Of a DNA stretch of 64,000 bases, positions 23,534 to 57,459 are shown in pieces. Numbering within the stretch: position 1 is the stretch's first letter; the number at the start of each line of letters is the position of its first letter. The DNA is from Harmothoe impar. Lineage: Eukaryota; Annelida; Polychaeta; Phyllodocida; Polynoidae. The stretch spans positions 83,204,622 through 83,268,621 of the forward strand of contig OX381709.1 in NCBI GenBank assembly GCA_947462335.1. The letters are read 5' to 3'. The notes beneath the pieces were generated by a model. The model worked only from the letters and a program-made list of their open reading frames with translations. It made no database searches and had not been told where the DNA came from. The translations under genes and the position numbers were made by a program.

Positions 23534-23866
23534 ATGTCTTCTCATCTACTCGAAAGACACTTTGGTACTCTCAAGCACTTAGCTAAGTGCTCGCCAAAGG
23601 ACTGCTCGCATCTAATAGACTCTGGAAGCGACGATCTGATCGCAGCGTTAAGTGAGATCTGTCACAATTTACTGGTAGGGAACATCCCGCTCAGCGACAA
23701 ACAACTGGACAAGCTTCGAGAATCGGCTGACGTGTTGAGGGAGGTCGGCAAAAAATCTACGCCCATCAAAAAAAAGAGACGCGTCTTGGTACAAGAGGGA
23801 GGTTTCCTCATTCTGGCTCTCATAGGGATGGCCTTACCGCTTATAAAGAGCATTCTCCGTATATGA
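23534..23866 (+). CDS. Small Polinton virion protein, pX-like (110 aa)
   Basis: A conserved small protein of metazoan Polintons and adintoviruses, usually compared with adenovirus core or minor capsid protein X. The N-terminal half is helical with AKCSPKDCSHL and LLVGNIPLSDKQLDKL. A basic stretch PIKKKRRVLVQ then leads into a hydrophobic C-terminus GGFLILALIGMALPLI. That layout suggests DNA or capsid contact through the basic part and a membrane-active or capsid-buried tail. It begins 9 nt after the ATPase stop, behind CAAAAAAAA, and its stop overlaps the next ATG (ATGA). Confidence 0.75.
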   Translation: MSSHLLERHFGTLKHLAKCSPKDCSHLIDSGSDDLIAALSEICHNLLVGNIPLSDKQLDKLRESADVLREVGKKSTPIKKKRRVLVQEGGFLILALIGMALPLIKSILRI

Positions 23867-26183: not shown

Positions 26184-26207
26184 AAAAAAAAAAAAAAAAA
26201 AAAAAAA

Positions 26208-27325: not shown

Positions 27326-27336
27326 AAGAGAGAAAA

Positions 27337-27762
27337 ATGATGCGTCAACGCGTTCCGTACTTTCCACCCAGGCGCACCGTCGGCAGAGGGTACAGCGATT
27401 ACTACAACGCGCAGCTGGGCAACGGCGTCAACGTGTACAGCGGGCGCTCTTTCCAGAGCGGGCACGGTTTAGGCGGCGCTCTGTTAGGTCTGATGCGCTC
27501 GGCTACCCCGCTATTGAAGTCGGTGGGAAAAACGCTGCTCCGCGCCGGTGTGGGCGTAGCTAAAGATGTGCTGGCGGGTCGGACTTTAAAGAGCAGCGTG
27601 AAAGACCGAGGCGCAGGCGCTCTGAAGAGACTGGCGAGTACGGCGTTCTCGGGAGGAAAGACGCCTGTCGCGTCTAAGAAAGGGTCGAAACGTCGCCGGC
27701 ATTCTCCTCAGACGGGCGGTGGCTCTTGCAAGAGACGTAGAGGGGATGTATTCGACCGGTAA
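27337..27762 (+). CDS. Adenovirus pVI/pX-like minor virion protein (141 aa)
   Basis: A small basic protein that usually precedes the major capsid gene in Polintons. YYNAQLGNG, then GHGLGGALLGLMRSATPLLK forms a Gly-rich to amphipathic helix, the part likened to the membrane-lytic helix of adenovirus protein VI. The remainder is Lys/Arg-rich (KKGSKRRRHS, CKRRRGD) and could bind DNA. The start is ATGATGCG, 11 nt after the penton-like stop, behind GAGAGAAAA. A 79-nt gap with a TATA box follows before the capsid gene. Confidence 0.75.
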   Translation: MMRQRVPYFPPRRTVGRGYSDYYNAQLGNGVNVYSGRSFQSGHGLGGALLGLMRSATPLLKSVGKTLLRAGVGVAKDVLAGRTLKSSVKDRGAGALKRLASTAFSGGKTPVASKKGSKRRRHSPQTGGGSCKRRRGDVFDR

Positions 27763-27779
27763 GCGCCTAGGCGTTCAGG

Positions 27780-27787
27780 TATAAATA
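27780..27787 (+). promoter_or_regulatory. TATA box of major capsid gene
   Basis: TATAAATA in GGTATAAATAAAAAGACTGG, 55 nt upstream of the capsid ATG. It suggests separate strong transcription of the capsid-protease end of the array. A short out-of-frame ATG lies in the leader at about 27826. Confidence 0.65.
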
Positions 27788-27841
27788 AAAAGACTGGAGG
27801 CGGCCGGCGTCAGTCTGTCGGCCGCATGAAGAGAGAACACA

Positions 27842-29146
27842 ATGGCTTACGTACACGAGAGCAGTAACGAGTGCGCGCTCTCTGAGCTCGACCTGCACAC
27901 CGTAGCGCCGACTCAGACTACTATCTTAAAGTCGTCTTTCCTGGGGATAGAAACAAAAAACTCTTTAGAGGATGGAGGTAACATAAATTTCACCATCAAC
28001 AAGTCGCAAGAGTACACAGACCTGAACGAGAATTACCTTCATCTGGAATGTCAAGTGCTAAAGGACGGAGCGGCGATCGAGGACACCGACGCGGTAGCTC
28101 CGGTGAACAACTTGGCTCACTCGCTCTTCAAAGACGTCCAAGTCTCCATCGGCGGTTTCAAAGTGTCTGGCAACACCGAGACCTACCCTTACCGAGCTTA
28201 CTTGGAAGGGTTACTCAACTACAACAAAGACGTGAAGGACGGCGTCATGAGCGCCCAGGGGTGGCATGAAGATACGCCCGGTCAGTTTGACACGTTGACT
28301 GACGCGAATGCGGGGTACAAAGCGCGCAAGAAGCTAATCTCCAACAAGCGCTTTTCGCTGATGGCGCGACTGCACTTTGACCTGGCTCATCAACCGAAGC
28401 TCATCGTTGGAGAGACAGAAATCAATCTCACTCTGAAACAAGCGGCGCCCTCTTTCTATCTGATGTGCGCCGCTGACGGAGGCTACAGCTTGAAGATCTA
28501 CAAAGCAAAGCTCTACGTGCGACGCGTGCTGGTGGCGGACGCTGTAGCGGAAACGCACGAGAGAGCGGTGATAGAACACGGGCCCTTCGACTACCCGGTG
28601 AACAGAGTGGAGGTGACGACCTACGCCATCCCTCAAGGTAACAGAGATCACAGCTACACGCACTCCAACACAGGCCAGCTTCCCAAGTCGATGATGATTT
28701 GCTTCCTTGACCACGACGCCTTCAACGGTAGCTACACCAAGAACCCGTTCGAGATGAAGCATTACGACATCAGCTCGCTTCAAGTGATAGTGAACGATCA
28801 GAAAGTGCCGAACGACGCCTACGTGCCCGACTTTAAGACCAAAGCGGTCGTGAGAGAGTACTTGGCGCTACACACGGAAACGGGGATGTACGAGGGCGCG
28901 CGCTCCTGCGGTATTTCATACGAACAATTCCTGAACGGTTACACGGTGTTCCCCCTCGACTTAACCCCAGACAGATCGCACGACGGGTGTCGCGTGAACC
29001 TTATAAGAGCGGGTCAGCTGAGGGTGGAAGTCAGTTTCCGCTCGGCGCTACAAGCGACAACAACGGTGCTACTCTACTTGGTGTACGACAACGTCGTCGA
29101 GCTGACCCGAGATCGACACCCCGTCACCGACTACCACATGAACTGA
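27842..29146 (+). CDS. Major capsid protein (double jelly roll)
   Basis: The main shell subunit, expected to trimerise into pseudo-hexagonal capsomers. 434 residues, near the family's ~450. The N-terminus ECALSELDLHTVAPTQTTI is the typical opening of metazoan Polinton capsid proteins. NLAHSLFKDVQVSIGG and ETYPYRAYLEGLLNY belong to the first jelly roll, and the C-terminal half ends RVEVSFRSALQATTTVLLYL before a short tail. No stops or frameshifts. It has its own TATA box, and the leader ends GAACACAATGG, a good start context. The protease gene follows after 29 nt. Confidence 0.92.
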   Translation: MAYVHESSNECALSELDLHTVAPTQTTILKSSFLGIETKNSLEDGGNINFTINKSQEYTDLNENYLHLECQVLKDGAAIEDTDAVAPVNNLAHSLFKDVQVSIGGFKVSGNTETYPYRAYLEGLLNYNKDVKDGVMSAQGWHEDTPGQFDTLTDANAGYKARKKLISNKRFSLMARLHFDLAHQPKLIVGETEINLTLKQAAPSFYLMCAADGGYSLKIYKAKLYVRRVLVADAVAETHERAVIEHGPFDYPVNRVEVTTYAIPQGNRDHSYTHSNTGQLPKSMMICFLDHDAFNGSYTKNPFEMKHYDISSLQVIVNDQKVPNDAYVPDFKTKAVVREYLALHTETGMYEGARSCGISYEQFLNGYTVFPLDLTPDRSHDGCRVNLIRAGQLRVEVSFRSALQATTTVLLYLVYDNVVELTRDRHPVTDYHMN

Positions 29147-29175
29147 AGACAAGACGGCGGTACTTGGCGTATCGT

Positions 29176-29628
29176 ATGAACACGCTTGAAATAAGCAGAG
29201 TGTTGAAGGAAAACGTTCACACAAAACATCGTTTCCTGGGCGTTTTCTCTTGTGACACTATTCCGAAGCACCCTATCAAAGACACTTGTTTCGTGAGCAA
29301 CACAGATCCGCAACATTTACCAGGTCAGCATTGGGTGGCGTTTTACGTGTCGAGCACGGGTGAAGTGTACTACTTTGATTCCTTCGGCTTACCGCCGCTG
29401 AGTGCGGAGTTCTTGTCTTTCGTGGAATGCTCTGCTCCGTTCAAGTGGCAAAGAAACCGCATTCAACTACAAGACACTTCTGCTGACACCTGTGGACCTC
29501 ATTGCGTTCATTTCCTAATTGAAGCATGTCGAACAAGAAACCCCAAGAAGTGCGTCATGCGCATGAGCAAAATCCCAAAGCTGAGCGACCGGGTCGTGAG
29601 TCAGAAGCTATCGATGATGCTGTTGTGA
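29176..29628 (+). CDS. Adenain-like cysteine protease (virion maturation, C5 family)
   Basis: 150 residues. The frame opens at 28987, but ATGAACACGC at 29176 is the sensible start because everything before it overlaps the capsid gene. The catalytic His is in GQHWVAFYV (about residue 55), the acidic partner in YYFDSFGLPPL (about 73), and the Gln/Cys part in LQDTSADTCGPHCVHFL (Cys near 110-114). In adenoviruses and Polintons this protease trims capsid precursors. Its last 103 nt overlap a second frame encoding a 99-aa protein. Confidence 0.92.
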   Translation: MNTLEISRVLKENVHTKHRFLGVFSCDTIPKHPIKDTCFVSNTDPQHLPGQHWVAFYVSSTGEVYYFDSFGLPPLSAEFLSFVECSAPFKWQRNRIQLQDTSADTCGPHCVHFLIEACRTRNPKKCVMRMSKIPKLSDRVVSQKLSMMLL

Positions 29629-29825
29629 CGGGTTGTTGCGATGGCGGCCGTTTCATGGAGGCAAAGATTCTCTGCCTTGCCGAAATGGTGTTGGATTTAT
29701 CCAAAGTCGTGCAATGTCTATTGGAGAAAAGTCGTCCGGGGTGTGGTGGTGCGAGTGACGGCGGCGTGAGACTTTGCGGCCTGTTGAGTTGCTGCAAATC
29801 GAAGAAGCAAGCTAAAAAAGCATAA
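29526..29825 (+). CDS. Small overlapping protein with CxxxxCC-Lys tail (99 aa)
   Basis: Not recognised. It starts inside the protease gene in another frame (AAGCATGTC, A at -3) and continues 197 nt beyond the protease stop, directly up to the element's tandem AATAAA signals. The part beyond the protease is not constrained by overlap yet stays open and ends sensibly, which supports a real gene. The middle FMEAKILCLAEMVLDLSKVV is an amphipathic helix. The C-terminus RLCGLLSCCKSKKQAKKA resembles S-acylated, Lys-rich membrane tails. Alternative: random open frame. Confidence 0.5.
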   Translation: MSNKKPQEVRHAHEQNPKAERPGRESEAIDDAVVTGCCDGGRFMEAKILCLAEMVLDLSKVVQCLLEKSRPGCGGASDGGVRLCGLLSCCKSKKQAKKA

Positions 29826-29857
29826 ACTTGTGTGTTTTTTCTGATTGAAAATGAAAA

Positions 29858-29870
29858 AATAAAGAATAAA
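29858..29870 (+). terminator. Tandem polyadenylation signals of Polinton B late array
   Basis: AATAAA at 29858-29863 and again at 29865-29870, some 30-40 nt after the last stop, followed by a T/G-rich stretch (TTATCTTGTTGTGTTTTTAT). Expected 3' end of the capsid-protease transcripts. Confidence 0.75.
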
Positions 29871-29934
29871 ATGAAAAGAAAAGAAATTATCTTGTTGTGT
29901 TTTTATTTCTATATATAAGTTACATAACTTTTTT

Positions 29935-30330
29935 TTGTTTGTTTGTTTACAAACAGTCACGTGTCACGTGGTGTTGTTTACAAACAAGAAAGCCACGTGG
30001 TGTTGTTTACAAACAAACCCTAAGTAGGTCACGTTACCCTAGTTACCAGAATGCCGGCTTCTGATTGGCTGAGCCTAAGTAGGTCACGTGACGTAAGTAG
30101 GTCACGTTACCATGGTTACCAGAATGCCGGCCTCTGATTGGCTGAGAGCTTCTAAGTAGGTCAGTAGGTCACCCAGAATGCTGGCTTCTGATTGGCTGAG
30201 AGCCCTAAGTAGGTCACGTTACCATGGCAACGGGTCACGTGACCAAATGGAGGCCTCTGATTGGCTGCATGTCGATTGAGTAATAAACAGTACTTAACTA
30301 TAGTCCCGTTCCGATACATACTATACTACT
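29935..30330 (-). repeat. Polinton B terminal inverted repeat, right
   Basis: 396 bp, inverted copy of 19789-20180 ending TACTATACTACT. Differences are few (for example CCAATGAGA versus CCAATCAGA), so the insertion is recent or the repeats are kept alike by replication. Confidence 0.95.
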
Positions 30331-43137: not shown

Positions 43138-43841
43138 TGTCAGGTATGACCGGCGAGCCCGGCGAGCCCGGCGCTGCGGGCGCCCGCGTGTTCAAGCCGA
43201 CGGCGGGAGACGCTACTCCCGCCGCCGGCACACGCAGGCGCGCGCCGGCCCGCATAGGCGGCGCTCCAGTCGGCACTCCCGCCGCCGCCAGGCGACGCTC
43301 ATCCCGCACATTGTTTCCCACAGACCAGCATAAGGGTCACCCCTTTGATGTACACTAACAGGGGTAGACAAACTATGGAGGGGTATTGTGTGACTGTCTC
43401 TCTGACTGTTACAGCCCTCCAACCACTGTCAACTGACACTAACACTCAAGATGCCATGCTGGTAGCCTGGCCCCCTTAAATAGGGTCAGGTCCCAGCACT
43501 GGGCATCTCCATCCTCACTCTACACTTGGACACCACTGAGCAAGGACCTCTCCACTGACTGAGAACAAGGCTATAGGCTATGCCCTACTAGGCCCAACTA
43601 TCAGACATGGTGTAGGACCCCCTTGGCTCTAGTCCAGTACTAACCTCAGGGTTATTAGGTATATTTACCAAGACCTATATTATTGTGTGGATAGGTGTAA
43701 CTGAGTGGAACCTACATTGTACTTACTGTACTGTTGCTGTCAACTTGTAATAAATACCAACTATACTACAAGACCTCAAGACTTAGTCAACTTCCTCACA
43801 TTACAAGGAGTCTCCCAACTAAGGGGATTCCTTGTATGACA
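43138..43841 (+). repeat. 5' LTR (704 bp)
   Basis: TGTCAGGTATG...TTGTATGACA. The first ~190 bp are a CpG-dense block, unlike the rest. TTAAATAG (43476-43483) is a TATA-like element and AATAAA (43749-43754) a polyadenylation signal, which places R roughly at 43510-43775. A candidate primer-binding site TGGTGGAGAAGTCC starts 4 nt after the LTR; its tRNA was not identified. Confidence 0.95.
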
Positions 43842-44212
43842 AAGTGGTGGAGAAGTCCTAACAAGATCCCACAAGCTGGCAGCACAGACTACCAAGACTC
43901 ACCTCCGCAGCAAAGGACCAGCTACCCCTGGATCTCTACCCAGCAGGAGGAGGAGACCCAGCTCCAAGGAGTCATCCAGGAGCTCCACTCCAACACCCTC
44001 AGCTTCACCACACCACACCACTCAAGAGAGTGACTTCCAAGGCAAGCTTCACCTGGACACCCTAGCTGCCCTGGACAGTATCCAGGACACACAGAGTGAC
44101 TTGTTCTCAAACGGTCAGCATACCCCAGGATCAGGTATGAGTGACGATGAGACAGTACCCCCAGGCCAGGCAGCCAAAGAGGAGGCTGAGGCACTTCTAC
44201 TCATAGCCCAGA
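43842..44212 (+). other. Leader between 5' LTR and gag
   Basis: Contains the candidate primer-binding site. A CAG|GTATGAG splice-donor match lies at 44134/44135. One frame stays open from just after the LTR to a stop at 44226 (SRSSTPTPSASPHH, HLDTLAALDSIQDTQ, EEAEALLLIAQN) with protein-like composition but no ATG before 44137. It may be an N-terminal Gag extension joined by frameshift or splicing. Confidence 0.5.
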
Positions 44213-45913
44213 ATGTATGTGGATAAGACACTTAGGCCTGAACTAACAGCCCTACACACCACACATGAGGAAAGCACCAGCCGAGCCTTAAGGAAGGCCA
44301 AAGAGGAACAAGAGAAGGAATTAATATTACTCAGACAAGCCAACCAGGCACTGAAGAACTCTATGGAGACCCAAAAAGCTGAAGCCGCTCAAGCACTACT
44401 TGATATGCAAGCTCATCTACAAGTGACAATGAAAAACCAGCTAGCTGAGGCCCTAGCCTCACTCAAGTCAGGTGCACCCAATACCCAAGGAGTGAACCTG
44501 ACTAACACTGACACCTCCTCAGCACTCCTAGATGCCTTGAAAGAGGAAAGAGTTGCAAGGGAGGCATCTTTCAGTGGGTTAAGGGACCAGCTAAAACGGG
44601 TCAAAGAGGAAAAATACTGTGATATTCTACAGCCAGAAAAGTTTTCACAGTCCTCTCTCACACAATCCGCCAGGAGGCACTGCACAGACTATGAACAATA
44701 CTTTGATTCCAGATATGGGTACCATCCCAGTAACAGAATCAAGTATTTCTCAAACTACCTAGATGGTAAGGCAAAAATTTGGTACAAAGCCTATAGGACA
44801 GCCCATCCAACAGCAGACTATGAAGAAATGAAGGCAGCTTTCCTGATATACTTCAAGAAGGAGGACGACAGATTTGATGCTAAGGCATTGAGGAAGCAAA
44901 ATCCAAAAGAATCCGTATCAGACTATGCCATGGCCTTACAAAAGATGGCCACAGCTCACAACAAGTCTGAGGAGAGAACAAGGGAAGCCCTGCTACATGG
45001 TCTAAGGGACGACATCAGTGCAGTAGTCATCCACAGGGAAGCAACTACATGGGATAAAATACTTGAAGTTGCAGAGGAGTATGAGAACCAACAAACAGTC
45101 TCCACTGGTAACATTAAAGATGAGATAAAAGCAGAATTAGGCTCAGAGCTACAGGAAACAATAGAATCCATGCAGGCACAACTGAAGTCTGTGACACATG
45201 TAAACTCTATGATTGTGAAGCAAACAAAGTCACAGAAAAATGGAAACCCCTCAAAGAAAGCCAAATCAGACCCAAAGACAGTTCAAATGGATCACTCATC
45301 AGAGGATGAAGACCAAAGCCTAAACCTCATGTCAAATGAACATGTGAGGAGGCAAGAACAAAGGGCACTGAAGGATCAAGGTAAACCCAACAACAGCCAA
45401 CAAAGGAACTCTGGAAATAACAGAGGAGGCTACCGAGGCAAAAACTTTGACCCAAACTTCAGAAATAGCAACAGAGGAGGACAACGAGGCAGAGGTGGAT
45501 ACAGCCAAAATAACAGCCGAGATCACCAAAGCAACAGTCAGGACACCAGCCGTAGAGATAACAGCAGAAGTCGTGACAACAGCAGACACCGTGATAGTAG
45601 CAGAAATCGCGACTACAATCGCCGTGATAACAGCAGAGACCGTGATTACCACCGTCGTGACCAGAGCAGAGATCGTGACTACAACAGAGGTCGGGATCAA
45701 AACCGTCGTGACTACAGCAATAGTCGTGACAGACAGCATGACTACAACCGCAGTCGTGACAACAGCAGAGGTCGAGACAGCTACAATGGCTACAGATCCA
45801 ACACACAAGGCTACAACCCCCAACAGCAGCCCCAACAGCCACCTCAAGCTATCCAGCCTGACGTGCTTCAACAGATCAAGCAGCTACTAGGATCTTCAAA
45901 CTCGGGAAACTAG
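44213..45913 (+). CDS. Gag polyprotein without zinc knuckle
   Basis: Structural polyprotein. The chosen start is the first ATG after an in-frame stop (MYVDKTLRPE). The N-terminal ~110 residues are coiled coil (RALRKAKEEQEKEL). Residues about 150-250 match the retrotransposon Gag fold (YFSNYLDGKAKIWYKAY, SVSDYAMALQKM). A linker of about 100 residues is followed by RGG boxes (RGGYRGK, RGGQRGRGGY) and about 100 residues of RDNSRSRD-type repeats, ending in a Gln/Pro tail. No CCHC knuckle is present; RGG and RD/S repeats presumably bind RNA. It ends at TAG 45911-45913, right after the slippery heptamer. The upstream open frame may add an N-terminal extension. Confidence 0.88.
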   Translation: MYVDKTLRPELTALHTTHEESTSRALRKAKEEQEKELILLRQANQALKNSMETQKAEAAQALLDMQAHLQVTMKNQLAEALASLKSGAPNTQGVNLTNTDTSSALLDALKEERVAREASFSGLRDQLKRVKEEKYCDILQPEKFSQSSLTQSARRHCTDYEQYFDSRYGYHPSNRIKYFSNYLDGKAKIWYKAYRTAHPTADYEEMKAAFLIYFKKEDDRFDAKALRKQNPKESVSDYAMALQKMATAHNKSEERTREALLHGLRDDISAVVIHREATTWDKILEVAEEYENQQTVSTGNIKDEIKAELGSELQETIESMQAQLKSVTHVNSMIVKQTKSQKNGNPSKKAKSDPKTVQMDHSSEDEDQSLNLMSNEHVRRQEQRALKDQGKPNNSQQRNSGNNRGGYRGKNFDPNFRNSNRGGQRGRGGYSQNNSRDHQSNSQDTSRRDNSRSRDNSRHRDSSRNRDYNRRDNSRDRDYHRRDQSRDRDYNRGRDQNRRDYSNSRDRQHDYNRSRDNSRGRDSYNGYRSNTQGYNPQQQPQQPPQAIQPDVLQQIKQLLGSSNSGN

Positions 45914-45946
45914 AGACCCACAGCGCCGCTGGGCCAGTGCGTTGTG
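45904..45946 (+). promoter_or_regulatory. -1 ribosomal frameshift signal between gag and pol
   Basis: The slippery heptamer G GGA AAC (45904-45910) is in the correct Gag register, directly before the TAG. An 8-nt spacer (45911-45918) leads to stem CACAGCGC (45919-45926), a 12-nt loop and GCGTTGTG (45939-45946), eight pairs with one G-U. The -1 frame is the pol frame and is open through this point. This is a canonical layout; the loop GGG could pair with the CCCCCC downstream to make a pseudoknot. Confidence 0.9.
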
Positions 45947-48900
45947 AGCCTCTCCAACCCCCCATCAAGATCCAAGATCAACAATCCCTAGGACAACCAA
46001 AGACAATTGCTAGTATAGCAGAGACAATCCCCCAGATGCACACTGGGAAATCAAGCCGACCATCAGTGATTCACATCACACCTCAACAAGATGCATCGCA
46101 AAAGGAAATGGGTGAGAGTACCAAAATTTCTGTTGAACTTCTTAAAAATGGCTGTTTAAATGCAAGATTCTATGAACACACTGAAATACCTTGTTTAGTT
46201 GACACCGGTGCCACTATCACCTGTGTCAGGGATACTTTTCTTAGGGAAATTCAGAAATCTCGAGATGTAGAAATCAAAAAGAGAAAGTTCAATGTACACT
46301 TAGCAGACGGATCCATATGCCATGTAAGACAAGCAGCAGTATTGAAATTCAAAATTCATGGTACCAGATTCGAATTCCCATTCTCAATTATTCCAAACCT
46401 CACAAAGCCAGTTGTCCTAGGCACAGATTTCTTAAAAGCAACACGATCACAGATCGAATTCAATGTAGACCCAGAGCTACAAGTCAAGCCAGTCCGAGCT
46501 GTTAGGGAGGCTACAATCCTTCCTTTCACAGAACTAGCAGTTCTAGGACAAGTCACATCCCTCAAATGTTTAGAAGGATGTGTAGGCACATTAGACAATT
46601 TGCAGAGGAACAACAGAGTTCCATACCTAGTTCAAAAGGGAGTAGTAACACCCTCAGAAATGAACAGGCACCCAATCATACTGCTCAATACAAGCCACCG
46701 ACCATACAAGGTGAGGAAGGGTGATATAATAGCCCTATTCACAGAGGTAGATCCCTCTGAGTTACATCAACCAGATACTGACATCCCTACTGAGGAACCC
46801 ACACTACAAGTGCTAGACACTGAAGAGAATTGTAGTGACACAGAGTCAGACTGTGCCTCAGTATATGCAGATCCAGATACAAACCGTGGAGATGACACTG
46901 ATGATGAATTGGCCACAATTCACAGTGAGGCTCATGACATTATGCCAGACATAATGGAAAATGTGCCACCCAAATGTGTACTAACAGATATTGGACAAGA
47001 GAGACTCCAAAAGTTACTCCACAAGTATCAAGATGTATTTGTAGGTAAAGACAATGACATAGGTACAACCCACCTATACACACATTCAATTCACATCAAA
47101 CCAGATGCAGTACCATGTCACTACCTACCATACAGGCAGACGCCTGAGAAGCAAGCTAAGATGGGAGAAGTCTGTGAAGACCTAGTCAGACAGGGCATCC
47201 TCAGAGAATGTGCAGAGGGACCCTGGGCATCCAGATCATTTTTAGTACAGAAAGCATCTGGAGGCCAACGTCTAGTCACAGACCTACGCCACGTCAATGC
47301 TAATATGATAAACCAAGCTTTATCAACGCCACGTGCAGACGACACACTAGACATGATAGGGTCACTCAAACCTACTGTTTTCAGTAAACTAGATGCGCAA
47401 CAAGGGTTTTTCCAAATTCCCATAAGAAGGGAGGATCAACACAAAACTGCTTTCATAGCAAATGACAAAAAGTATGTCTATCAAAAGATGCCGATGGGTT
47501 TGGCTACCGCGCCGGCAGGATTTTGCCATCTAGTAACTCTAATTCTCAACAAACTGAAATACAAATGTGCCCTACCATACCTAGACGACATTCTAGTCCT
47601 ATCACCAGATGTAGAACGACATTTTTCAGACCTTGAAGATGTCTTCAAAAGCCTGAGAATTGGGAAACTCAAGCTAAAGAAATCAAAAGGTGAATACTTC
47701 ACAGATAGGATAGATTTTCTAGGAATGCGTGTCACACCAGATGGTTTACAACCATCCCCAGAAAAGGTGGAAAGTGTCAAAACCTTTCCCACCCCAAAAT
47801 CCGTGAAACAAGTCAGATCATTCACAGGACTATGCCAATACTTCAAAAAGTTCATCAAAGACTATGCCAATATTGCTAGGCCACTGTACGACCTACAAAC
47901 AAACCTAAAGGTTTTCAAATGGAATGAGGATGCAGACAATGCTTTCAAAACATTGAAACATGCACTCTGTACCCATGCACTATTGAGATACCCAGACTAT
48001 GACAAAGAATTCAGTCTAGCAACAGATGCTTCAAATGTGAGCCTAGGAGCTGTTCTATCACAACGCAGTAGTGAAGGAGTACTGAGACCAGTAGCCTTCG
48101 CAGGTAGAACACTATCAAAGCATGAAAGAAACTACAACACAACAGAAAGAGAGCTACTAGGTGTAGTATATGGGATACTACATTTTAGGCACTACTTAGA
48201 AAGTAGACACTTTCAGTTGTACACAGATCATGCAGCTCTAATACCACTGCTCACAAACACAGGTTTGACCCACAGGTGGGCCAGATGGGCACTGGATATC
48301 CAACAATTTGCATTCACAATACAACATGTAAAAGGAGATGACAACATTCCTCCAGATGTGATGTCAAGAAGAGAATATCCAGATGCACCACCAATGACCA
48401 ACCCCCCACCACCTCCAAGAAGGAAAAGGGCAGCCACCAGAACCAAATTCTCTAAAATCCAAACCAAGATACCATTCAACAGAGATGACCCACCAAAAGC
48501 AATTGACAGACCAAAACCAGTGATCAGAGGTATCTTAAAAGAGACCACCCATTATGTGTTCTGTCATTGTGAAAGGGAATACTGTGAAGAGTATCCAGAA
48601 AACTGTTTTACCCCGGTTGAGACCAACAGGATTGCACAGATGGTGAAAGCCACATCCCGTGAACCACCATGCAGTGCATCAGGAAATCAGTTGGAAGAAA
48701 AACTGCATAAAATTGCTTCAATCACCAAGGTAGTCAGATTTGCAGAAGAACAGCTGGATATGGAGGAAGAACAGGACAGAGACATTTGTGTTGTCACCAC
48801 ACGTTCAAAAGCAAAACGGTCGGTTGCAGAGGATACAAGGTCTAATGACCACCCTCAGCAATTAGGCCTAAAAGCCAAAAAGAACAAAGTGTCAACCAAA

Positions 48901-50715
48901 TCCTCTTCCCCTACTAAATCCCCCATTTCAACACCCAGCACACCCACAGCCAATTTGCAGAAGCACTCAGACAGAGCAGGTACTGCACAGAAGGCTCACA
49001 AAACCAAATCTGACCCCCATCCCAAAAGAACAAAGGCCGCCTCCACCAGCACAAACAGAGGAGCAGCCAGTTCAAAGGAGCAGACAGTCAACACAGACAT
49101 AGCAGTTGAACAACCAAAGAAACAGACAAAGACCAGACCTGCACCAAAATCTCCTGAAGCAATCCAGGCAGAGAAAGATAAAGAAAGGCTGGCACAGCAT
49201 ATAATGGAATTAGACCAGATGTTAGACCAAATCCCAGACAGTTCAATCAACTCCACACTGTTGAAAGAAGAACAAAGGAAGGACACTGGACTAATACCCA
49301 TTATAGACTACCTAGAGAAAGGTGACCTACCTGTAAAAAGCACTGAAGCAACAAGGATTAGGAATAATGCTCAGCATTACCTACTCCTAGACAACATTCT
49401 AGTACACATATCCCCTACATCATGGAGAAAAACAGACACAGTACCACTACAAGTTGTAGTCCCAAAAACTTGGGTTGAAAACATACTGCAACACTTCCAT
49501 GACTCACCAATGGCAGGTCATGTAGGTACTTCAAAAATGATGTCTTCTCTCATACCTAGGGTATATTGGAAATCTATGATGGCTGATGTCAATCAGTATG
49601 TGTCAACATGTGACACTTGCCTAAAAGCAAAAAGGGCAGTGCACACCCACAAAACACCAATGACTGTAAGGGACTATATGCCAACCCCCATGAAGCACCT
49701 AAACTTAGATGCTGTGGGACCACTCCCAGAAACAGCCAGGAAAAACAAACACATACAAGTTTGCATAGATTATTCAACTAGATATGTCATAGCATATGCC
49801 ACAAAGGATCTCACAGCAGAAACCACACAACATGAGTTCTACAAGAACGTCATATGTCAGCAAGGTGTACCAACTTCAGTTCAAACTGACAATGGCACCT
49901 GCTACACAGGCAGCAATTTTAAGAAACTGATGAACACCCAGAAGATTAGACACGACCTGTCAAGTCCATACAGACCACAATCAAATGGATTAGTGGAAAG
50001 ATTCAATGCCAGTATAGGAACAGCATTAAGGACTTTCTGTTCTCAGAATCAGAAAACATGGGACCTGTACATAGAATCAATTACATTTGCATTGAACAAC
50101 ACAGAGTCCCAGACAACAGGTTACACACCATTCTTCCTACTTCATGGCAGAAATCCTCAAACCATTGTAGAAACTGCCCTAAACATAGAGGAAGAAATCA
50201 AAACAGTAGCCGAGCATGTATCTGGAATGATACTGTCTCAAGATGAGTCTAGAAGAAAGGCAATAGACAGAGTCAAAAAGCTACAACAAGGAAGGAAGTC
50301 AAGATATGACAAAAAGCTTACACCACAAGCTATACTTCCACTAGATATTGTATATATCAACATTCCCAGAATTCTGTTGACCACAGATTCAAAGAAGCTT
50401 CAACCCCTATTCATGGGACCATATGTTGTTGCAGAAAGACCAACTCCAACCAGCGCAAGGTTGAAGAACCTATCAAATAACCTACTAGTCCCCAGACCAG
50501 TACATATTGATAGGCTCAAAAAGGTCACAACACTGAGGAAAAATGAGTTTGCACACAGACTCATTCCCCACACCTCAAAGTTTATCCACAGGATAACAAG
50601 GGATAAATCCCAAATCACACTCACCAAAGAGTCAGTTGGTCTAAACCAAATAGTACCCAGACCAGCCCACCACAAGGTGAAAAGAAACTCCAGGCAAGGG
50701 AGAATATCTAAGTAG
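45910..50715 (+). CDS. Pol polyprotein: protease, reverse transcriptase, RNase H, integrase
   Basis: Made by -1 frameshift from gag; there is no ATG near its 5' end, and the nearest alternative start codon (45937) is GTG. Aspartic protease LVDTGATITCV (about residue 90). RT motifs are RLVTDLRHVN, LDAQQGFFQIP, LATAPAGFCH and YLDDILVLS (about 550). RNase H has LATDASNVSLGAVL, TERELLG and LYTDHAAL. Integrase follows: zinc finger (HDSPMAGH...CDTCLKAK) and DDE core LNLDAVGPLP, VQTDNGTCY, NGLVERFNAS. A GPYVV segment near the end matches the GPY/F module. Between RNase H and integrase lies an unusual ~300-residue linker: Pro/Arg-rich, with CHCEREYCEEYPENC and a VVTTRSKAKR motif, mostly disordered. 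No defects. Confidence 0.94.
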   Translation, partial: LETHSAAGPVRCEPLQPPIKIQDQQSLGQPKTIASIAETIPQMHTGKSSRPSVIHITPQQDASQKEMGESTKISVELLKNGCLNARFYEHTEIPCLVDTGATITCVRDTFLREIQKSRDVEIKKRKFNVHLADGSICHVRQAAVLKFKIHGTRFEFPFSIIPNLTKPVVLGTDFLKATRSQIEFNVDPELQVKPVRAVREATILPFTELAVLGQVTSLKCLEGCVGTLDNLQRNNRVPYLVQKGVVTPSEMNRHPIILLNTSHRPYKVRKGDIIALFTEVDPSELHQPDTDIPTEEPTLQVLDTEENCSDTESDCASVYADPDTNRGDDTDDELATIHSEAHDIMPDIMENVPPKCVLTDIGQERLQKLLHKYQDVFVGKDNDIGTTHLYTHSIHIKPDAVPCHYLPYRQTPEKQAKMGEVCEDLVRQGILRECAEGPWASRSFLVQKASGGQRLVTDLRHVNANMINQALSTPRADDTLDMIGSLKPTVFSKLDAQQGFFQIPIRREDQHKTAFIANDKKYVYQKMPMGLATAPAGFCHLVTLILNKLKYKCALPYLDDILVLSPDVERHFSDLEDVFKSLRIGKLKLKKSKGEYFTDRIDFLGMRVTPDGLQPSPEKVESVKTFPTPKSVKQVRSFTGLCQYFKKFIKDYANIARPLYDLQTNLKVFKWNEDADNAFKTLKHALCTHALLRYPDYDKEFSLATDASNVSLGAVLSQRSSEGVLRPVAFAGRTLSKHERNYNTTERELLGVVYGILHFRHYLESRHFQLYTDHAALIPLLTNTGLTHRWARWALDIQQFAFTIQHVKGDDNIPPDVMSRREYPDAPPMTNPPPPPRRKRAATRTKFSKIQTKIPFNRDDPPKAIDRPKPVIRGILKETTHYVFCHCEREYCEEYPENCFTPVETNRIAQMVKATSREPPCSASGNQLEEKLHKIASITKVVRFAEEQLDMEEEQDRDICVVTTRSKAKRSVAEDTRSNDHPQQLGLKAKKNKVSTKSSSPTKSPISTPSTPTANLQKHSDRAGTAQKAHKTKSDPHPKRTKAASTSTNRGAASSKEQTVNTDIAVEQPKKQTKTRPAPKSPEAIQAEKDKERLAQHIMELDQMLDQIPDSSINSTLLKEEQRKDTGLIPIIDYLEKGDLPVKSTEATRIRNNAQHYLLLDNILVHISPTSWRKTDTVPLQVVVPKTWVENILQHFHDSPMAGHVGTSKMMSSLIPRVYWKSMMADVNQYVSTCDTCLKAKRAVHTHKTPMTVRDYMPTPMKHLNLDAVGPLPETARKNKHIQVCIDYSTRYVIAYATKDLTAETTQHEFYKNVICQQGVPTSVQTDNGTCYTGSNFKKLMNTQKIRHDLSSPYRPQSNGLVERFNASIGTALRTFCSQNQKTWDLYIESITFALNNTESQTTGYTPFFLLHGRNPQTIVETALNIEEEIKTVAEHVSGMILSQDESRRKAIDRVKKLQQGRKSRYDKKLTPQAILPLDIVYINIPRILLTTDSKKLQPLFMGPYVVAERPTPTSARLKNLSNNLLVPRPVHIDRLKKVTTLRKNEFAHRLIPHTSKFIHRITRDKSQITLTKESVGLNQIVPRPAHHKVKRNSRQGRISK

Positions 50716-51808
50716 ATTACTTTTATATATTGACATGATCATATGGAATATCTATACCCACAGACTATGAATAATAGTCATATAAGTATATACACTCTAT
50801 ATGAAGGAAATTAATTTTCCAACAACTGTCCAAATCATGAATGATAAGTAGGAATTTCATATCAGCATAGGATATGAACCCACACAAAGGACAGAAAAGA
50901 CAATATACACTATATAGGTTACAAAAAACAACGTGCACACAAAGTAGAATCAAAGGACAGATTACTACAGGGTTGAAGTCTGAAACCCAAAAGGCTACAC
51001 ACAAAAGCCAAAAAGAGACTACCTAAAGGGATTAGCAACCCAAGCTTGAAGAAACCACAATTATCATATTTTGCATCAAAGGCTAGCATCCTTGAAAGAA
51101 TGCACAATGAAAATGTTTGAACCTAAATCCTGTAAAGTACATGAAACAGAGCGTGCTATGCCAAGAGACTACTGGCTAGACACACCCTTACCCTTCAAAG
51201 GACCCACACACTTGCCAGGGCAATCAAACCCCCACAGATGCAGGTGGTCCACACTAATTACCCCAGACATAATTACCCCAGTCAGACAAGCTGACACTGA
51301 TGGCCCATAGCTAGGCCACCAGGGAAACAAAGCCAGGCCCTCAATGGATGAGGGTAGGGTGGGCTACATAAGATGCCCTGACTCCATAGCCAACTCACCA
51401 GTTCTACTCCTGCAGCAGTCAGGTACACACCAGCTGGTCCTAGCCATACCAGTTCTCCTATAGCAGGAGGGACTCTGTCAGAAAGCAGACCACACCCACT
51501 CTACAATATCATACCCAGTCACTACAATCTTGGGAAAGGACTCTAGCACAGATTGGACATTAAGCCAACACTAGCTTGATCATGGAAAAAGGTACAGTTC
51601 AAACACTACATTGATTATTATATTACTACTGGGACCAACCAGGATTTCTGCTCTCAAAACTATGTACACAGAGGCAGTGCCAAGTGGATACTTCACATAA
51701 GCAAAAAGGATAGCTCACAAAATCAGCAAACCAATTTAAACCTAAGTATATTGCAAAAACACTAGTAGAAATCTTACTAAGACATAGAATATATTTTATA
51801 TTTCAGGC
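50716..51808 (+). other. pol-env intergenic region
   Basis: About 1.1 kb without a supported gene on either strand. It ends in the env splice acceptor. The small minus frames at 50765-51107 show no features. Confidence 0.5.
51793..51806 (+). promoter_or_regulatory. Candidate 3' splice site for env mRNA
   Basis: ATTTTATATTTCAG, with cleavage after 51806, only two bases before the env ATG at 51809. With the donor-like CAG|GTATGAG at 44134 it would make a spliced subgenomic env mRNA, as retroviruses and errantiviruses do. Confidence 0.6.
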
Positions 51809-54427
51809 ATGCTAAAGCCAATCCTACTACTAGTGATGATGGCCACTTCTCAAGCCATCACATATGTGCCCACCGTTAGACAGAACGTTGGAGCCATATA
51901 TGAGCCATTACCTGAACCATTGGTCAATGGGCACGATACCACAACCATGATATTGGCAATACCATACCATATACCTGCTCCACCAGAGACCGAAACCAAA
52001 ATACTGGACCAGGTTATGGCACTAACATTTCCTACCTTGCATGACGACAGTTCTACCAGTCAGATATTACAGCAGGCAAGGGAACTAGATCTGTTAATAG
52101 ACATAACAGACAAGGAAATTAACTCTACCTTAGCATCCATCCATTTGTTCCTATCAAATCCAATTAACAGTCAAGGAAGGTACAGAAGAGCACCACTTGG
52201 GTTCCTAGCCCCACTCTTCAGAGGAGCAATAGGTCTTGCCACACTAGATGACGTCAAAGAGGTCATGGACCAGATAAAGAACATAGACGGCATTCTAGAA
52301 GCTTTTTCCAAGCAAGACAAGGAAGCAGCTATATTAATTGATAAGGTCACACAACGCCAAGACAAATTTGTCAAGGCATATGTTAAGGATAAAAGTATGC
52401 TAGACCAATCCATGAACACTCTAGGCCAAAATATGAATTTATGGGCTCAAAATATGACCACATCTCTGAACACTTATGCAAATCACGAGCATACACAAAG
52501 AAGGAAGATCCAAATTTTAACTGATGCACTCACCATTATTGTAGCAAGAATGAACTATCTGCAAGCATTGCAGCGCACCACATCAGCACTCAGGATGCTA
52601 TCAGCAGGCATTATGACTGCTGACATAGTACCACCAGCTGAACTAACGGAGCATCTGAACGATCTGGACATGACACTCAGAATACACTCACCAGGATCAA
52701 AGGTCGCCATAACTGACCTTGACTACTATTATTCCCAAAGAATGATATCCTACACCTATTCGGAACGGCACATATACATCCACCTGGATATCATTGTAGC
52801 ATCCACCGTCTCCACCTTCAGAGTATTTCAACTGGTAACTGCACCAGTACCAATCAACACCAAGGAGACACCTACAAAGGGAGTAACCCAATTAATTACT
52901 GATGTCAAATTCTTGGCTATCTCTGAAGATGGTTCACTATTTATTGAACTAACAAATGCAGATATGCTAACCTGTCCAGGAACTAAGATCAAAATTTGTA
53001 CCAAAACTAGCCCGAGAATCCATAGACATGTACCTACATGCACAGTAGCAATTTATTTGAACCAAGCTCAGCAAGTCAAGGAAATGTGCCAATTTACTAT
53101 CTCACCCTTGAAGAGACCTATCTCACACGCTGTAGCCATTTCACAAGATGAATATCTAGTGACCACAAATTCTCCCACCTACACAGTTACGTGTCACGGG
53201 AAACCAGCTACTACTCACAAAGCACCATCACACCCAATCATAGGTGTACCATGCCTATGTACAGTGAATATAGATCACTATTCACTACCAAATTCTAGGT
53301 TGCCATGCAACACTACAATTTCATTTCACTATGCTTTGGAGACTATAAACCTACCTTTTCTCGCGGCTCTAAATGAAATCAAAGAAATTGGACCAGACTC
53401 CAAGGCAAATCTGCCACCTTTTCCAAAGGTCAACCTATCCAGGACACTGGATATGTTAAGGAAATCAAGTAATATTGATGAATCAACATTACTAGACCTA
53501 AACCCATTCGCAAAAACCCTGCTAGATGATGCCTCCAGCCTGGCAAAGCCACTGGAAAATAGACTAATAGAGTCCTATCTATACAAATTTGCACGGCATC
53601 CAGCAGCATCTATCATACCAATGATACTTTCGGTTATAGCTACAATTTTGGCCACCTACACCCTATTCAAAATGCACAGAGGATCCACACTACTAGCTTA
53701 TATGCCAACCGCAAAAGCATATAGATTTGTCACAGAGAAGCCTATGGAAAAAGCCTTCGAAAACCTATACAAGAAGGACACCACCACGGCACCAATAGAA
53801 CAGGGCCCCACCCCTATTCTAACTATCCAGGAGACCCATACTCTTATCATAGCCATACTATTCACACTCACTATTTACTCAGCCTACAGGCTGACCAAAT
53901 ATTTAAAGAGTATGGCAACCAAGCACTGTGGAAAGGGAAAAGTCACCAAGAGGACAAATCCCACAGTAGTACTAAAAGTCTACAAAGGAGACACCAACTT
54001 CTCCTTCCCCTTGCGTCCAGTGCCACATGAGTTTGATACAATTATAAAAGCTTCAGCCCCAACATACAGAGATATGATTATAAAAATGTACCCTCTCCCA
54101 AGACTAGTATTTGAATGGAATGGACCAGTAGTAATTACTACTAAGAAAGGAGAGACCGCATATTTACTGCCAGAAACTATCAATCTACCATGGCGTGCCA
54201 GGTTCAGCATAATACCAGCGCTCAGGGAACCTAATCTAGATTTTGCCATGTTACTACAAAATGACATTTCACCCCAGCCTGTCACCATGGATACCCATGA
54301 ATCAAAGCTGGAAAATATCATAATTGACGACCAAAGAGAGAGCACCAATACATTCAAAAATGTACTCACCATACTCACCCAACCACCTACAGCTGTAACT
54401 AGTGAGAAAGTACATGGGGAAGAATAA
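51809..54427 (+). CDS. Envelope glycoprotein, F-type fusion protein-like (872 aa)
   Basis: Virion surface protein expected to mediate membrane fusion. A signal peptide covers residues 1-16 (hydrophobic, ending TSQA). A furin-type site RYRR is at 124-127, followed at once by a hydrophobic Gly/Ala/Phe-rich segment like an internal fusion peptide, so the N-terminal subunit is short (~110 residues) and the C-terminal one long. This is the arrangement of baculovirus F and errantivirus Env. Helical regions follow (about 145-270), then a Cys-containing ectodomain. The first transmembrane helix is at about 601-624. Odd: a second hydrophobic helix at about 675-697 and then ~170 more residues with mixed beta-like character, longer than usual cytoplasmic tails. 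The family assignment rests on architecture, not on clear sequence identity. The frame is intact. Confidence 0.8.
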   Translation: MLKPILLLVMMATSQAITYVPTVRQNVGAIYEPLPEPLVNGHDTTTMILAIPYHIPAPPETETKILDQVMALTFPTLHDDSSTSQILQQARELDLLIDITDKEINSTLASIHLFLSNPINSQGRYRRAPLGFLAPLFRGAIGLATLDDVKEVMDQIKNIDGILEAFSKQDKEAAILIDKVTQRQDKFVKAYVKDKSMLDQSMNTLGQNMNLWAQNMTTSLNTYANHEHTQRRKIQILTDALTIIVARMNYLQALQRTTSALRMLSAGIMTADIVPPAELTEHLNDLDMTLRIHSPGSKVAITDLDYYYSQRMISYTYSERHIYIHLDIIVASTVSTFRVFQLVTAPVPINTKETPTKGVTQLITDVKFLAISEDGSLFIELTNADMLTCPGTKIKICTKTSPRIHRHVPTCTVAIYLNQAQQVKEMCQFTISPLKRPISHAVAISQDEYLVTTNSPTYTVTCHGKPATTHKAPSHPIIGVPCLCTVNIDHYSLPNSRLPCNTTISFHYALETINLPFLAALNEIKEIGPDSKANLPPFPKVNLSRTLDMLRKSSNIDESTLLDLNPFAKTLLDDASSLAKPLENRLIESYLYKFARHPAASIIPMILSVIATILATYTLFKMHRGSTLLAYMPTAKAYRFVTEKPMEKAFENLYKKDTTTAPIEQGPTPILTIQETHTLIIAILFTLTIYSAYRLTKYLKSMATKHCGKGKVTKRTNPTVVLKVYKGDTNFSFPLRPVPHEFDTIIKASAPTYRDMIIKMYPLPRLVFEWNGPVVITTKKGETAYLLPETINLPWRARFSIIPALREPNLDFAMLLQNDISPQPVTMDTHESKLENIIIDDQRESTNTFKNVLTILTQPPTAVTSEKVHGEE

Positions 54428-54494
54428 CACAATTATACAGGATCGAGATTGACCAAAACTTTTGTGAAAAGTTGGTTGGCCCTGAAAAGGACCG

Positions 54495-54500
54495 TTTATT
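54495..54500 (-). terminator. Polyadenylation signal of the antisense gene
   Basis: AATAAA on the minus strand, 23 nt after the antisense stop and before the env stop is reached. It keeps the convergent env and antisense genes from overlapping. Confidence 0.7.
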
Positions 54501-54523
54501 TTGACATTTATAGATGCCACCCA

Positions 54524-55132
54524 CTAGTTGTTATAGTCCCCCCATCCCAAGGCCTCCCAGGACTCGGCCAACTCGGCAGCGGCAGGAGATCCAATCCACG
54601 TATCTTCACTGAAGAGCCACTCGTTCTCCTCCCTCCACTGGACAAAACGTGCCTCCAAAGTAGACAAAGCATGCTCAGCGCTGTCTTTAGCATCACCTGT
54701 CACCGTGTAAGCACATAGGCCGACAGCCAATAGGAAGTCCCAGATGACCCCATCATTTCTGGTGAAAAGCAGTCGCGGGTCATATCCATCCAGATCACGT
54801 AGGGCCTGAGCCAACAGCTCCAGAGATGCCGCCCTGCGCATGGAAATCCCGCCAGCACCAAGGAAGTACCAGCCGTGATGACGGCACACCAAAACATCAC
54901 CAAAACTGGCAATGTCGTGCCGGACTTTATGCAACCACCGCGTCCTTACTGAGTCATACCGACTCAAAATACTCCTAAAAGGAGTACCAGGAGTCAGCCC
55001 CTCCAAGGTGTTTTGATCACCTAACCACAGGTCTAAGGCCTGCATGTCACCCTGCAGCCAGGCCTCAGGGAGATATGCAAGTACCTCAGGTACAGCCTCC
55101 ATCTCGTCCTCCAAAATTGCCATATGCGCCAT
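54524..55132 (-). CDS. Antisense accessory gene of the env-bearing retroelement, unknown protein (202 aa)
   Basis: Not recognised. Longest frame in the 2.3 kb between env and the 3' LTR, on the opposite strand to gag, pol and env. Start ATGGCGCATATGG has A at -3 and G at +4. A TATA box lies 58 bp upstream and AATAAA 23 nt downstream, so it has the parts of an independent gene. The protein is acidic and rich in Trp (ten: EAWLQ, DLWLG, HGWYFLG, VQWREENEWLF, DTWIG, ESWEALGWGD) with a helical middle (MRRAASLELLAQALRDL). No signal peptide, zinc finger, bZIP or clear membrane span. The coding block is visibly more GC-rich than env. By analogy with antisense genes of deltaretroviruses a regulatory role is possible, but nothing in the sequence shows it. 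Confidence 0.75.
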   Translation of the reverse strand: MAHMAILEDEMEAVPEVLAYLPEAWLQGDMQALDLWLGDQNTLEGLTPGTPFRSILSRYDSVRTRWLHKVRHDIASFGDVLVCRHHGWYFLGAGGISMRRAASLELLAQALRDLDGYDPRLLFTRNDGVIWDFLLAVGLCAYTVTGDAKDSAEHALSTLEARFVQWREENEWLFSEDTWIGSPAAAELAESWEALGWGDYNN

Positions 55133-55190
55133 ACTGTGTTATCTCAAGGGTACTCAAGGAATAAGTGATCCTACTGTGGTCTACACAGCC

Positions 55191-55196
55191 TTTATA
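55191..55196 (-). promoter_or_regulatory. TATA box of the antisense gene
   Basis: GGGGTTATAAAGGC on the minus strand. It is preceded by a GC/CACCC-type block (GGGGGTGGGGAGGGG, about 55197-55212), a plausible activator site. Predicted transcription start is near 55165 with a leader of about 33 nt. Confidence 0.7.
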
Positions 55197-55235
55197 ACCC
55201 CTCCCCACCCCCAAATGACACTGTTCACCCTCTGA

Positions 55236-56741
55236 AGTGATCCCCTCACTTCAGGTGACAAGTCCATGAGAAGGCACATGATCTGCTCACCAAAAGGTGT
55301 CAACCACCGGTGTCACCGCGGCACACGACGCATCTTGCGCCGCATGACACAATAGCCTCAAGGTGCCACTCAAAAATCTGCTCAAGGTGCAAAATTTTCA
55401 AACTCTCACAATCCCAAGGTCAAAGCAAGGTCTCAGTGTGTGTCAGTAGTATCAGGAAATCAATTTTAAGGTATCCCAAAATGAAACAGCCAATTTTTGA
55501 AAAATTGAAGTTTTACAAAAACAATTGCGTACTCTTAACCATGTCAAACTTGCTCAAACATGCACTTATATGTATGAAATTGTATTATTACAATCTAAAT
55601 TGCTAATCAAACATGTTTGTATATAACACTGTATTTGCACTGTATTTTACACCGTATACCTTTGTATTATGTAAGACTATTTACAGAAAAACATGAAGCA
55701 AAAAGGGAGATAGTCCGCTGACTAACCCTAGGATACTACACAAAAGACTTAAATCTCACAGCAGCGGCCCACTGCAAAGACATTTCTGATCAAAGTGTAG
55801 ATCCACAAGTTGCAAAGTGCCAACACCAAGAATCTTGTAAGATTCAACTATCATTGCAGAAACAAGATACCAAGTCATTTTTATGACATTATGAACACTT
55901 ACCCTCCACCGGATAAGGACAAAATATCTGCATAAAAAGGACTGTATTTGTACATACAAACTTACAAACTTAAGTAATGCAAAATGTCAGATGACACAAT
56001 TATGAACACTTATCCGCCACCGGACAAGCACATAACTATGCATAAAATGTACATTACTGATTGCTATATCACGCAAATCCAAAGATAAGCGCTATCTAGA
56101 AATAACAAAACAAACTTCAAGCCGGTTGGCCTACTTTTATATAAAAGTGGCCTTGGTTTTTTTGGTATCAAACAAAAAAGTTTGTAAAAGATTATCATAA
56201 GATTTTGCATAATCTGCATTATACTCTGTATATTTGTATTCACATGTGAACATTGATATATCAAAATCCACTCAGTTCCACAAAGCACCTATTCACCAAA
56301 GACAGCCTATTACTTGATAACACATTTTTTCATCATGTTTTAGAATTAAGACAAAGATGTACCATACTGTGTTTATAATTCAAACAACGATTTGAAAAGT
56401 GTCAGATAAAGACACAATGTATTACTACACTGTATAACTATGTGATTAAGAAAGTACCAAGTTGGTACAAAGAAGGTTTACATACCTTATAGTTAAGATT
56501 ACACTGTATATAATGTAGATGACTAGCCAAGCACAAAACCAAAATTCTCCCCAGACCTTTGGTATTTACATACTCTCACATCATCTATATTACAAAAAAA
56601 AGTGTACTTCACTACAAAAAAAAAAAAAAAAAAAAAAAAAAGGTAAATTCTATTTGCCACCAAAAATTGTGGACAAAATTCCAAAATTCACCCCAAATTT
56701 TTAGATGGAATGACAACTGACGGAGAGTTGTCCTTTTTCCC
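55236..56741. other. Non-coding 1.5 kb before the 3' LTR
   Basis: AT-rich with no supported gene. Two related blocks, ATGAACACTTACCCTCCACC (about 55889) and ATGAACACTTATCCGCCACC (about 56004), are about 115 bp apart and each is followed by a GCATAAAA segment. An A run lies at about 56617-56641. Likely regulatory for the antisense gene or for RNA export or packaging, by position only. Confidence 0.5.
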
Positions 56742-56751
56742 GAGGGGGAGG
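56742..56751 (+). other. Polypurine tract candidate
   Basis: GAGGGGGAGG, four bases before the 3' LTR, the expected primer for plus-strand DNA synthesis. Confidence 0.6.
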
Positions 56752-56755
56752 CACC

Positions 56756-57459
56756 TGTCAGGTATGACCGGCGAGCCCGGCGAGCCCGGCGCTGCGGGCG
56801 CCCGCGTGTTCAAGCCGACGGCGGGAGACGCTACTCCCGCCGCCGGCACACGCAGGCGCGCGCCGGCCCGCATAGGCGGCGCTCCAGTCGGCACTCCCGC
56901 CGCCGCCAGGCGACGCTCATCCCGCACATTGTTTCCCACAGACCAGCATAAGGGTCACCCCTTTGATGTACACTAACAGGGGTAGACAAACTATGGAGGG
57001 GTATTGTGTGACTGTCTCTCTGACTGTTACAGCCCTCCAACCACTGTCAACTGACACTAACACTCAAGATGCCATGCTGGTAGCCTGGCCCCCTTAAATA
57101 GGGTCAGGTCCCAGCACTGGGCATCTCCATCCTCACTCTACACTTGGACACCACTGAGCAAGGACCTCTCCACTGACTGAGAACAAGGCTATAGGCTATG
57201 CCCTACTAGGCCCAACTATCAGACATGGTGTAGGACCCCCTTGGCTCTAGTCCAGTACTAACCTCAGGGTTATTAGGTATATTTACCAAGACCTATATTA
57301 TTGTGTGGATAGGTGTAACTGAGTGGAACCTACATTGTACTTACTGTACTGTTGCTGTCAACTTGTAATAAATACCAACTATACTACAAGACCTCAAGAC
57401 TTAGTCAACTTCCTCACATTACAAGGAGTCTCCCAACTAAGGGGATTCCTTGTATGACA
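56756..57459 (+). repeat. 3' LTR (704 bp)
   Basis: Same length as the 5' LTR and no difference noticed on reading. Followed by CTAT, the target duplication. Confidence 0.95.

Follow-up and report, generated by a model that had tools for sequence, protein, structure and literature searches.

We find that, in a Ty3/gypsy-type element of the annelid Harmothoe impar, the minus-strand open frame located between the env-like gene and the 3′ LTR is a protein-coding gene under purifying selection, and that it is carried by nearly all copies of a recently amplified element family. The copy described here lies in a window of 64,000 nucleotides (the whole stretch of DNA that was analysed; contig OX381709.1, positions 83,204,622 to 83,268,621), and coordinates given without a contig name refer to that window. 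We give a slightly better than even chance to the reading that this is an accessory gene, probably a regulatory one, which is expressed independently of the LTR from the minus strand of the env-bearing element.

The layout of the element is given in Table 1. The tetranucleotide CTAT precedes the 5′ LTR and follows the 3′ LTR, which is likely a 4-bp target duplication. Assignment to the Ty3/gypsy (Metaviridae-like) elements follows from the TG..CA ends of the LTRs with the short target duplication, and from a gag frame succeeded by protease, RT, RNase H and integrase in that order, as identified with Pfam. The env-like frame shows, by eye, an RYRRA furin-like site and then a glycine/alanine-rich hydrophobic stretch. 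When this frame was compared with PDB sequences, only weak matches to the fusion protein entries 9w4d and 9w4c were obtained (E 0.015), and Pfam returned no env family for it at E ≤ 1. Rfam at gathering thresholds gave no match anywhere in the element.

Table 1. Features of the env-bearing element and of the antisense gene, in window coordinates
Feature	Position	Strand	Remarks
LTR element	43138-57459		Whole env-bearing element
5′ LTR	43138..43841	+	704 bp, TGTCAG...ATGACA; identical to the 3′ LTR
3′ LTR	56756-57459	+	704 bp; matches the 5′ LTR without difference
gag open frame	44207..45913	+	Pfam Retrotrans_gag PF03732, E 1.2e-07
pol open frame	45862..50715	+	Pfam gag-asp_proteas, RVT_1, RT_RNaseH, Integrase_H2C2, rve
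env-like open frame, from first ATG	51809..54427	+	From the frame list; motifs by eye
Antisense gene	55132..54524	-	202 codons plus TAG (54526-54524), ATG at 55132; between env and the 3′ LTR
TATA box of the putative internal promoter	55191..55196	-	TATAAA, 58 nt before the ATG
G-rich box	55198..55212	-	GGGGGTGGGGAGGGG, directly upstream of the TATA; read from the sequence
Candidate AATAAA poly(A) signal of the antisense gene	54495..54500	-	23 nt after the stop
Perfect inverted repeat	55232..55254	.	9-bp arms, 5-bp spacer; upstream of the TATA

Other features were also seen in the window. A 10.5-kb Polinton-like element occupies 19789-30330 and has 392-nt inverted ends (99%). It encodes an adenovirus IVa2-like ATPase and an rve integrase with a weak chromodomain match, and it has a weak match to Peptidase_C5 (the adenovirus-type protease) and two frames judged capsid-like by eye, neither with a Pfam match; polB was not recognised among the six frames of at least 150 aa that were scanned. 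A tandem array with a 59-bp unit (19237-19769) adjoins its left end. On the minus strand, a second Ty3/gypsy-type gag-pol frame of 1052 aa (5418-8576) carries RT, RNase H and the H2C2 integrase finger and lacks a full integrase core in frame, and a tRNA-Ile (AAT) gene is predicted at 9678-9753.

An earlier note, made from the sequence of the window, had described a 202-codon minus-strand frame between env and the 3′ LTR, with a TATAAA ahead of an ATG in strong context and a G-rich box upstream of the TATA, converging with env without overlap, richer in GC than its neighbours and encoding a Trp-rich protein. Each of these features was found. The frame is present in the list of open frames, and since its stop-to-stop extent is 204 aa, the ATG is its third codon, about 1.6 kb from the 3′ LTR. 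The env frame ends at 54427, so the two genes converge without overlapping. GC content reaches 0.54 in the antisense ORF; the neighbouring kilobases, 51001-54000 and 55001-56000, lie at 0.41-0.44. In all of 80 copies compared (L001-L080, which include the window copy and were drawn from protein-similarity match lists), position -3 relative to the ATG is A and position +4 is G. Among 2000 order-1 Markov versions of 54428-56755, none contained a frame of at least 202 codons from an ATG; for 54490-55215 the figure was 1 in 2000.

Copies of the family were counted in the 1.51-Gb assembly with 30-base words, allowing up to 3 mismatches. A word from the antisense gene occurred 435 times, compared with 444 occurrences for the YLDD region of pol and 448 for the 3′ end of env, indicating that the gene belongs to the family and is not a private capture by one copy. 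The window copy differs from seven other copies by 1.1-1.6% over 3.6 kb. In each of two protein-similarity searches, internal stops were absent from the best 150 of 504 candidates, which says little about intactness because these rows were ranked by protein similarity. A fairer count used 56 places on contig C1, all of them exact matches to the env 3′-end word. The earlier note had named copies lacking the frame, or carrying stops in it, as an observation that would speak against a gene; such copies were looked for here, and the frame was intact at 50 of the 56 places, comprising 37 present in the protein lists and 13 of the other 19. The exceptions are L115, with an insertion at gene base 589 and a frame open to codon 200; L125, with an insertion at base 16 and the remainder of the frame open; L127, with a stop at codon 37; L118, without the 3′ half of the gene; L120, 92% identical, with the 5′ quarter unmatched and one deletion; and L122 (C1:80632810-80633435), which is diverged and open for 186 codons. 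Among 30 copies picked by their flank, 29 were intact and one, L089, had an insertion. We also observed four intact copies spaced about 65.9 kb apart on one contig (C2:109627949-109826332), which suggests either a tandem 66-kb segmental duplication containing the element or an assembly repeat.

Selection within the family was assessed in 46 copies whose choice did not favour protein similarity. Thirty had been picked by similarity of the non-coding flank 55260-56200, and 16 came from the 19 C1 copies that the protein match lists did not contain, with L118, L120 and L122 left out; four of the 46 are broken, three by 1-nt insertions (L089, L115 and L125) and one by a stop (L127). Variants common to at least two copies were 12 synonymous and 1 non-synonymous, and singletons were 26 synonymous, 29 non-synonymous and 1 stop (Fisher p 0.004 for shared against singleton variants). 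Neutral expectation is 2.1-3.2 non-synonymous changes per synonymous one, depending on transition bias. Shared variants have probably passed through replication, and singletons are probably for the most part changes that followed insertion. Read in the five other frames, the same sites gave shared non-synonymous to synonymous counts of 10:3, 11:2, 10:3, 6:7 and 12:1, and three fake frames in the upstream non-coding flank, taken from the 80-copy set, gave 33:13, 32:14 and 33:13. The C1 copies that are off the protein lists are, if anything, enriched in non-synonymous change, so the sampling works against a purifying result. The C1 sample alone, with L118 and L120 included, had 39 synonymous changes, 27 non-synonymous changes and 1 stop; L120 differs from the window copy by 23 synonymous and 12 non-synonymous changes and L118 by 3 and 6. 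A first count on the 80 copies (55 synonymous, 16 non-synonymous) was set aside, since protein similarity had served to rank those copies.

A deeper comparison was provided by the diverged copy L122, whose gene keeps the family's usual spacing to an exact env 3′-end word and aligns with the window copy over 184 codons without gaps, at 79% protein identity and 81% identity of bases. By the Nei-Gojobori method, the check between copies that the earlier note had proposed gave dN 0.116, dS 0.749 and dN/dS 0.15 (bootstrap 0.09-0.25), with 31, 18 and 57 differences at the first, second and third codon positions. The same comparison in the other frames returned ratios of 0.87, 1.86, 1.01, 0.33 and 2.23; we attribute the 0.33 to an opposite-strand frame in which changes at the variable third positions of the gene are likewise mostly silent. 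We conclude that the gene has been kept as a protein at a depth far beyond the recent burst. As an observation apart, the identity of the env word next to a gene as diverged as this one may point to recombination between subfamilies, or else to strong constraint on env at that place.

Protein searches found seven sequences, all on ENA contigs, with the 8000 best candidates scored in one of the searches. P0001 matches the common form of the protein. P0002 has 202 aa and is 77% identical to the window protein without gaps; the closest places in the assembly, among the best 150 of 504 candidates scored, are 79% identical to it, so that an origin of P0002 in another lineage or species is probable. 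P0003 matches the query at 75% identity across 76% of its length. Diverged relatives exist within the same genome at C2:39059085-39059579, which is 87% identical to P0003 and has one in-frame TGA, and at C10:74278497, which has the RHHGWYFLG codons in common with P0003. A protein search with residues 75-176 of P0002 yielded no further relatives, and the viral contigs searched contained no relative.

We next considered the signals around the gene. The TATA lies 1.56 kb inward of the 3′ LTR and reads TATAAA in 58 of the 80 copies, TATAAG in 12 and TATAAT in 10, so that its last base is altered in 22. The G-rich box, the TATA and the strong-context ATG stand in suitable spacing, with a predicted leader start near 55166. 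Transcription from the gene's own promoter is inferred from the short leader, from the ATG context held in every copy of the 80 and from a frame that begins at that ATG, and we regard the internal promoter as plausible but unproven. The poly(A) signal claimed by the earlier note, an AATAAA past the stop, holds for the window copy and is weaker family-wide: the site reads AATAAA in only 25 of the 80 copies, AATATAAA in 50, GATATAAA in 3 and something else in 2. In vertebrates, AATATA and TATAAA are weak variants of the poly(A) signal. The inverted repeat upstream of the TATA (CTGAAGTGA-N5-TCACTTCAG) is the sole one in 55140-56755 with arms of at least 9 and a spacer of up to 8; it is unaltered in 77 of the 80 copies, and the element contains no second occurrence of its 8-base core, TCACTTCA. 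It is a candidate factor-binding site and could possibly serve as an operator for a dimeric factor, either of the host or encoded by the element itself. An apparent dip in diversity over the promoter, initially taken as constraint, was dropped when it vanished upon removal of L022, a copy with unrelated upstream DNA.

The predicted protein has 202 residues, a mass of 22.8 kDa and a pI of 4.5, with ten Trp, two Lys and one central 19-residue stretch (residues 128-146) whose hydropathy reaches 1.53. Searches of Pfam, PHROGs, NCBIfam and PDB sequences gave no usable match. With eight members searched in Pfam at E ≤ 10, only DUF1285_N appeared, in one member (E 0.084), and this was treated as chance, as were PDB matches to MgtE and a mannosyltransferase (E 0.76-1.6). 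The structure prediction and structural search proposed by the earlier note were carried out and predicted helices but no confident fold. Mean pLDDT was near 44 in both of two AlphaFold runs with different leading sequences, which are not independent because they used the same eight input sequences; at that low confidence both runs agreed on helices near 52-70, 98-116, 127-145, 152-169 and 183-194. Foldseek with the second model returned 79 matches in the PDB, none at E ≤ 0.001. The motifs DGVxW (127-131) and WxxEN (166-170) were noticed by eye and resemble BH1 and BH2 of the Bcl-2 proteins. A Bcl-2 assignment was not supported, with no Pfam match at E ≤ 10, nothing relevant in the PDB profile search and no recognisable Bcl-2-family protein among the 50 of the 79 Foldseek matches listed for the low-confidence model. 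The earlier suggestion of a captured accessory gene stands in part: the gene is a genuine antisense protein gene, while no donor gene or family was found that would make it a captured one.

We propose that an RNA polymerase II promoter of the gene's own, composed of the G-box and the TATA ahead of the strong-context ATG, would drive the antisense gene, and that its transcript would end between the stop codon and env. With a promoter and an end of its own, an integrated copy could express the gene without the LTR. By analogy with Grande gene23 and HBZ, the acidic, Trp-rich protein with its predicted helices may act inside the cell and in trans, where its most likely role would be to modulate the element's expression or its nuclear steps, or to dampen a host response.

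Several other explanations of the frame were weighed. It could be an accident of a young family, open only through the recency of its copies, and the identical LTRs of the window copy and the small distances among the copies compared are what such an account expects. It is scarcely credible given the excess of synonymous changes among shared variants, the dN/dS at a dS of 0.75, the relatives P0002 and P0003 and the failure of randomised versions of the region between env and the 3′ LTR to produce a frame as long; the selection tests refute it unless their sampling is flawed. It could also be that the antisense transcript matters as RNA, in sense-antisense regulation or as a source of small RNAs, with the open frame as a by-product. 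Antisense non-coding transcripts of micropia and TART and antisense promoter activity in IAP are described in the available portions of PMC7264820, but selection falls on the amino acids, and 202 codons have been kept ungapped in P0002, which makes an RNA role very improbable.

Two further readings concern where the transcript starts and what the protein acts on. An HBZ-like start in the 3′ LTR, or read-through, would leave the TATA near 55196 with no promoter function. Most retroviral antisense promoters described in the parts of PMC10186651 at hand lie in the 3′ LTR, and both the TATA and the AATAAA vary between copies. The ATG is nevertheless far from that LTR, the spacing among G-box, TATA and strong-context ATG is suitable, and a stop-to-stop frame that opens two codons before the ATG suits a short leader from near 55166, so that we consider such a start unlikely. 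The main rival to the regulatory reading is a role directed at defence, in which the protein would be a counter-defence or cell-survival factor (acting on apoptosis, small-RNA silencing or innate sensing) and not a regulator of the element; independence of the promoter would allow it to act before or without LTR transcription. Expression apart from the structural genes would suit this role, as would an acidic, Trp-rich protein with helices predicted in low-confidence models and a central hydrophobic stretch, and the two motifs recall BH1 and BH2 by eye. Pfam and the PDB profile search gave no relevant match, however, the 50 of 79 Foldseek matches listed included no recognisable Bcl-2-family protein, and we regard the proposal as rather doubtful, though less so than a start in the 3′ LTR.

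If the favoured reading of a promoter-autonomous, probably regulatory accessory gene is true, then antisense genes independent of the LTR have arisen outside the plant Retand/Tat elements and the retroviruses, in an element with an env-like gene. The genome has about 440 copies, and the frame is intact in most that were examined, which makes both expression and function testable. Because the protein has no family match, identifying its target could point to a host factor restricting infectious retroelements.

We then compared the gene with known antisense genes. In the passages available from PMC7264820, gene23 of the maize element Grande is antisense, lies between pol and the 3′ LTR with a promoter upstream of the gene, and has a nuclear product. 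The layout seen here is therefore not unprecedented, and the earlier view that an internally promoted antisense gene is unusual holds for an env-bearing element and fails for the layout as such. The available text of a survey of Retand (PMC11963269) reports antisense ORFs in all representatives examined there, with the TRP28 domain present in 97% of clusters; an env-like sense ORF was not found in the region of the antisense ORF. Like Grande gene23 and the Retand/Tat aORF-3R, as described in those passages, the present gene belongs to a Ty3/gypsy element, follows the last sense gene on the side of the 3′ LTR and is conserved across copies. A promoter of its own, as described for Grande gene23, may also exist here, where a G-box, a TATA and a strong ATG context would suit one. 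Unlike the Retand/Tat elements as presented there, which are plant elements mostly with TRP28, this element has an env-like frame, and TRP28 (PF04195) was not found in eight members at Pfam E ≤ 10. This layout combined with an env gene is not known to us.

Among animal elements, the LTR elements of bdelloid rotifers are similar in being metazoan and in having accessory ORFs (extra ORF3s) beside gag and pol, and the accessible sections of PMC5408684 treat antisense only in passages on small RNAs, with no antisense gene. In the portions of the open-licence literature available to us, we recognised no conserved antisense gene in an animal LTR retrotransposon. In retroviruses, according to the parts of PMC10186651 at hand, antisense transcription of HTLV-1 starts from a TATA-less promoter in the 3′ LTR, and the antisense promoter of HIV-1 likewise lies in the 3′ LTR without a TATA, with some starts also reported in nef and env. 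HBZ itself is a bZIP factor (PMC3736048, in the text available), and no bZIP domain was matched by Pfam in eight members of the present protein at E ≤ 10. The gene resembles deltaretroviral HBZ and other retroviral antisense genes in being antisense, in its accessory or regulatory nature and in belonging to an LTR element that bears env, and differs from HBZ, as far as those sources describe it, in having a TATA, which lies 1.56 kb inward of the 3′ LTR. We tentatively suggest, at a little less than an even chance, that an antisense accessory gene with an autonomous promoter arose independently in an env-bearing lineage of animal Metaviridae, encoding a protein family without known relatives and perhaps with a new fold, in functional parallel to Grande gene23 and HBZ.
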